Source: Kiritimatiellota bacterium B12222 (GTDB taxonomy: Bacteria > Verrucomicrobiota > Kiritimatiellia > SS1-B-03-39 > UBA6053). From it: a DNA stretch of 64,000 nucleotides. Of this stretch, positions 27,248 through 27,970 are shown piece by piece. The notes under the pieces were generated by a model. That model did not search any database, had not been told where the DNA came from, and worked only from the letters and a program-made list of their open reading frames with translations. The first letter of the stretch is position 1; each line of letters starts with the position of its first letter. A program made the position numbers and the translations under genes. The stretch lies in contig CP120722.1 of NCBI GenBank assembly GCA_029719485.1, positions 310,001-374,000 of the forward strand, in the 5' to 3' direction.

Positions 27248-27970
27248 ATGACAAACATTACCCGCATGCATGCCTTCATTCATCGCTTTGAAGATCTCTC
27301 AGAAAAACCGGAAAAACTCTACACCCGTCCGGCCCTGAAAAAATGTTTTCTACGTCACTCCGGCCTGCCGGAGTGGTTGTTGACACGCTGTCAAAAAGAA
27401 GGTGCAGATTTTGCCGAAACCTTAGCCCGTTGTTGGCCCCAAGAAGGTCCGGGCTTGGGCACCTCCTTAGAAAATTTCATTCGCGACTCATATCCCACCC
27501 TAACAGACCCAGAAGCCTTAATTCAGGTTTGGAACCAGTGCACTACCCAGGAACGCATCGTGGTGAACCGTCTATTAATTGGGTTTGTACCGGAAACAAA
27601 AACGGAAGCGGTGATCGATCCCGAGTTGCCCCGCAAAGAAATTCAGGCAGAATTCATGTATGCCCTGTTGTCTGGAGATCCCGAATATAGCTTTGGTCTC
27701 TATCAAGGAAAAGAACCCGTGGTCTTCACCCGCGTAACCGTGCAGGATCCACAGCTTACCGCACAACTTCAGGCATACCTCGACCAGCATACCACCGAGA
27801 AAAAAGGCCCCGTTCGCATCGTTTCTCCGGGATTGGTCGGAAAAATCAGTTATACAGGGTTTACGGTCTCTGCCCGACATAAGTCAGGCATCAAAGTAGA
27901 ACATCCCCAACTGGAAAGCCTCTTCCCACCCGGAGGCCTCTGGCAGGCACAAGCCTTTACCGATCTATAA
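27248..27970 (+). CDS. DNA-ligase-like protein lacking the catalytic domain
   Basis: 240 residues. The first 115 or so resemble the N-terminal helical DNA-binding domain of bacterial ATP-dependent DNA ligases of the cisplatin-response (LigB/LigC-like) type: LPEWLLTRCQKEGADFAETL, then an acidic stretch, then TTQERIVVNRLLIGF. The last 100 or so resemble the same ligases' C-terminal OB-fold: YSFGLYQGKEPVVFTRV, TTEKKGPVRIVSPGLVGKIS and the ARHKSGIKVEHPQL end motif. The nucleotidyltransferase core between them, with its KxDG lysine, is missing. The reading frame is intact and codon use ordinary, so it may be a DNA-binding accessory protein rather than a wreck. It converges on and overlaps the DUF420 gene by six bases. 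Domain reading is from memory of the family. Confidence 0.7.
   Translation: MTNITRMHAFIHRFEDLSEKPEKLYTRPALKKCFLRHSGLPEWLLTRCQKEGADFAETLARCWPQEGPGLGTSLENFIRDSYPTLTDPEALIQVWNQCTTQERIVVNRLLIGFVPETKTEAVIDPELPRKEIQAEFMYALLSGDPEYSFGLYQGKEPVVFTRVTVQDPQLTAQLQAYLDQHTTEKKGPVRIVSPGLVGKISYTGFTVSARHKSGIKVEHPQLESLFPPGGLWQAQAFTDL

Follow-up and report, generated by a model that had tools for sequence, protein, structure and literature searches.

A conserved bacterial protein that descends from a LigB-type DNA ligase and lacks its catalytic domain

Layout of the reduced gene

The window, a stretch of 64,000 nucleotides from the complete, single-contig 4.43-Mb genome of Kiritimatiellota bacterium B12222 (G000), carries an intact open reading frame of 240 codons on the forward strand (positions 27248-27970). 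It is followed by a DUF420 gene on the reverse strand (PF04238, 27965-28399) and by a forward-strand gene of the endonuclease/exonuclease/phosphatase (EEP) family (PF03372, 28408-29436). Among the NCBIfam models, only those for LigB, the 'cisplatin damage response ATP-dependent DNA ligase', match the encoded protein (NF006701, E 9.7e-18; TIGR04120, E 4.5e-13), in two stretches each and with whole-protein scores below the curated cut-offs (64.4 against 543 and 49 bits against 400, respectively). Each half was also compared separately with seven full-length LigB proteins by profile-profile alignment using hhalign. Residues 28-112 aligned with LigB 54-144 (98.8% probability, E 1.3e-16, 41% identity), and the second half, corresponding to the OB domain, aligned with LigB ~425-509 (98.7% probability, E 2.9e-16, 37% identity). 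A PDB sequence search with the short protein returned no meaningful match, and a search with the catalytically dead full-length protein of G010, described below, returned solved archaeal-type ligases (E ~1e-31). AlphaFold2, run on an alignment of three sequences, gave no confident structure (pLDDT 41).

The true start of the protein is probably Met7 (27266), which would give a product of 234 residues. This start is favoured because the residue aligns with a methionine in the orthologues, being conserved in all three species that carry the gene (G000, G003 and G004), and because the segment that it opens, MHAFIHRFEDL (27266-27298), resembles and aligns with MKAFAHLFETL of the G010 LigB, and is thus a likely remnant of the LigB N-terminus. 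Residues 28-112 (27329-27583) come from the central part of the DNA-binding domain (DBD) and fall within PF04675 as placed in the G008 protein. LigB residues ~1-54, the N-terminal DBD helices, are largely gone or shrunk, and residues ~145-200 are absent. A junction of about 14 residues (27584-27625), placed from the alignments and the limits of the nucleotidyltransferase (NTase) domain, stands in place of some 255 missing residues, LigB ~145-401, that is the second half of the DBD and the whole NTase. Homology on the OB side restarts at about residue 127, directly after the end of the LigB NTase (Pfam limits 221-401 in G008); the form found in G002 helped to place this restart, with VPRLRQTLHLLYVLVAGEPEYTFGL aligned against LPRKEIQAEFMYALLSGDPEYSFGL. 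The OB domain extends over residues ~127-224 (27626-27919) according to hhalign, the alignment and the motif table described below, and in all three reduced proteins its motif VI (RxDK) is replaced by a different tail. RHKSG (27875-27889), an OB-domain motif of LigB, is retained in every reduced and dead form. The protein has a pI of 5.9 and is not basic overall, which counts against the explanation favoured below; the orthologues have pI values of 8.6-8.9.

The earlier note had described an intact 240-residue frame matching both ends of this ligase, and both the family models and the separate alignment of the two halves bear this out. Its further reading, a single clean removal of the NTase between the two outer domains, holds only in part. 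The NTase is indeed absent, but only the middle of the DBD is kept, and the protein has therefore undergone at least two internal losses rather than one. A six-frame search of G000 that read through stop codons recovered no NTase domain, and on this result a frameshifted catalytic core in another frame was rejected; neither the reduced protein nor the genome contains an NTase with the motif I lysine and motifs III-V. The complete genome thus lacks an ATP-dependent ligase domain; it does carry the NAD+-dependent ligase LigA. Since every NTase motif is absent, it follows that the reduced protein should have no joining activity.

Orthologues, synteny and selection

The genus has two additional species (G003 and G004) with intact orthologues of the same length, at 64-66% identity. 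A scan of genome contigs returned no orthologue-bearing records beyond these two, no relative was detected among viral contigs, and 388 genomes sampled from the phylum contained no further reduced form, every other LigB frame in them being at least 534 residues long. The core-less form is thus known from three species of one genus. The downstream gene order is shared in all three, with the reduced gene followed by DUF420 on the opposite strand, the EEP gene, a PHP gene and a gene for a Zn-ribbon coiled-coil protein; in G003 and G004 one extra gene of 379 aa precedes DUF420. In G001 the reduced gene is absent from the syntenic site, and a separate operon of LigB and its associated nuclease is present. 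Two other frames at the syntenic site were considered as ligases and rejected on inspection, the 462-aa frame of G001 looking prepilin-like and the 579-aa frame of G008 RecJ-like.

Comparison of the G003 and G004 genes gave a dN/dS of 0.123 at a dS of 1.07 (p 2.5e-30), with 38, 24 and 98 differences at the three codon positions, and the constraint was found in both halves of the protein. The reduced gene thus encodes a protein under purifying selection. The corresponding dN/dS values for the neighbouring genes and the nuclease are 0.05-0.08, so that the reduced gene evolves about twice as fast. This higher rate, together with the different erosion of the related G002 form, is what a decaying pseudogene would offer in its favour, namely an in-frame deletion in a dispensable LigB gene that had been kept by chance. 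However, three intact orthologues with 64-66% identity and constraint of this strength across both halves make such decay very improbable. The earlier note had left two outcomes for the gene, depending on whether it was unique. A fresh internal deletion is refuted by the orthologues found in two other species, the shared synteny and a dN/dS of ~0.12; the other outcome, a conserved, ligase-derived protein without joining activity, is supported by the occurrence in three species, the purifying selection, the synteny and the existence of longer, dead relatives. That such a protein would bind DNA or recognise nicks, as the note proposed, is plausible, although the DBD has been kept only in part.

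Full-length and intermediate pseudo-ligases

The motif table comprised 27 rows, consisting of 23 LigB proteins, the dead forms of G006, G010 and G002, and a divergent ligase outside LigB (G327). Within the family (INTERMEDIATES), LigB appears active in G001, G005, G008 and G009, and is full-length and dead by motif in G006 and G010. In the latter two the motif I lysine is replaced by Ile or His, the motif III glutamate by Val, the motif IIIa tyrosine by Leu or Val, the motif IV glutamate by Thr, the motif V lysine by Thr or Ser, and the motif VI arginine by Gln or His. The 23 other LigB proteins, from the class and the phylum, retain K, E, Y or F, E, K and R at these positions. In the G002 form, of 378 aa, the first DBD half is missing, and the identical catalytic positions are lost. 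The dead NTase domain is still constrained, with a dN/dS of 0.21 between G006 and G010. The pseudo-ligases of G006 (L022:3429-5009, reverse strand) and G010 (L025:7797-9539, reverse strand) both score over the TIGR04120 cut-off, and automatic annotation would label both as active. The row outside LigB, G327 (L079), comes from another family of the class and is a divergent ATP-dependent ligase whose motif I is of the KxNG type.

The dead full-length gene of G010 has the neighbours of the reduced gene, DUF420 and EEP, which places the reduced gene at an ancestral LigB locus; that of G006, a close homologue, lies at a different location. The dead intermediates in G006, G010 and G002 point to a lineage of pseudoenzymes, some of which have shed the dead domain. 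In a tree built on the shared columns, the dead and reduced forms group together (83/83) within the LigB of the family (100/99), a result that would fit a single inactivation and is not decisive. The nuclease, EEP and DUF420 genes give a different species order, in which G006 and G010 group weakly with G008 and G009 (68/81). The dead and reduced forms may go back to one inactivation or to two.

The retention of parts of the domains that flank the catalytic core could also be read as a split ligase, in which a second gene supplies the NTase and the parts reassemble. However, G000, G003 and G004 have no DNA_ligase_A_M domain that the PF01068 search was sensitive enough to detect, motif VI is gone from the OB domain, and a dead core is tolerated in G006, G010 and G002, so that a split enzyme is hardly credible. 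The reduced protein is almost certainly a conserved, catalytically dead remnant of LigB. The gene has descended in place from a bacterial LigB-type ATP-dependent DNA ligase, and the likeliest path would lead first to a full-length pseudoenzyme, with the dead NTase domain being lost afterwards.

The LigB-associated nuclease and comparison with known systems

The LigB-associated nuclease has a metallo-beta-lactamase (MBL) fold and was scored against the cut-off of its model, TIGR04122. It exceeds this cut-off in 13 of 346 genomes of the class Kiritimatiellia (G000-G006, G008-G010, G036, G097 and G099), which are exactly the genomes with LigB or a LigB derivative; weak hits in G074 and G327 are not LigB. 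In six of the 13 only inactive LigB forms are present. The HxHxDH motif of the nuclease is intact in all 12 aligned copies. The 13 genomes belong to two families and therefore do not represent 13 independent events, and the co-occurrence may partly come from shared ancestry; each of the families, however, also includes genomes with neither gene (G007, several members of f14). The Lhr-type helicase of the LigB cluster (TIGR04121) was searched for across the family, and helicase matches fell below the cut-off only. Two further features of the nuclease genes were observed. A second copy in G001, the genome that lacks the reduced gene at the syntenic site, has a branch length of 0.64 (L108:5413-6495, reverse strand), markedly longer than its orthologues, which may hint at a release from constraint. 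In G000 a NifU_N-like gene of 135 aa (L102:7471-7878, forward strand; E 4e-10) overlaps the nuclease frame at its start, and G004 and G001 have homologues in the corresponding place.

The DBD and OB domains bind DNA in ligases. The retention of parts of both under selection is therefore also consistent with a conserved DNA-binding protein whose role is unrelated to the nuclease, such as protection of nicks, single strands or ends, or competition with LigA. The nuclease gene of G000 (C1:214880-215845) is unlinked to the reduced gene, nor do the two adjoin in the other genomes that carry the reduced gene, and the absence of adjacency favours this, the main alternative, which we regard as possible, if on the doubtful side; however, it leaves the perfect co-occurrence of LigB derivatives and nuclease in the class without explanation. 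The preferred reading is that the reduced protein acts as a DNA-binding partner of the nuclease, a role that we put forward tentatively. The remaining DBD piece and the OB domain would bind DNA at nicks, gaps or ends and either dock the nuclease or regulate it, making the protein a non-joining recognition or scaffold subunit in nuclease-based repair, with LigA sealing the product. Taken as a whole, the combination of a LigB remnant with a nuclease-partner role is the explanation that we moderately favour. A broader form of this proposal, for which we would claim only a fair chance short of even, is that LigB itself has a second, structural function, recognizing DNA for the MBL-fold nuclease and holding it, and that this lineage has kept that function alone, initially in a pseudo-ligase of full length and later in a DBD-OB adaptor. 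If true, nuclease and adaptor would together form a repair module that has no ligase dedicated to it. The selection on LigB outer domains after the loss of catalysis, always together with the nuclease, suggests a role of LigB beyond sealing, and the active, dead full-length and core-less forms provide a natural separation-of-function set in one bacterial family.

The closest known system is LigB, with which the reduced protein shares a homologous DBD segment and OB domain, the orthologous locus (as in G010) and the same co-occurring nuclease. Unlike LigB, it has no NTase, none of motifs I-V and no motif VI, and it is under half the length; judged by these family-defining features, its sequence is that of a LigB descendant rather than of LigB. 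The role of the LigB repair cluster has been stated as unknown (PMC10140301). Fusions of the nuclease with LigB are known in Opitutus terrae and in metagenomes (PMC10140301), and they tie the LigB DBD and OB domain to the MBL-fold nuclease. However, the fusions keep the NTase motifs, whereas in G000 the nuclease and the LigB derivative are encoded by separate genes and catalysis has been lost. LigB frames of ~900 aa (L127-L135), probably fusions like that of O. terrae, occur in several families of the phylum. A literature search, with most subscription journals outside its scope, returned no paper on a pseudoenzyme that arose from an ATP-dependent DNA ligase. Noncanonical bacterial PolX proteins without polymerase activity (PMC9226535) are likewise reported to be bacterial DNA-repair enzymes that have lost their main activity; they keep an exonuclease activity, whereas the reduced LigB-derived protein retains no catalytic domain.
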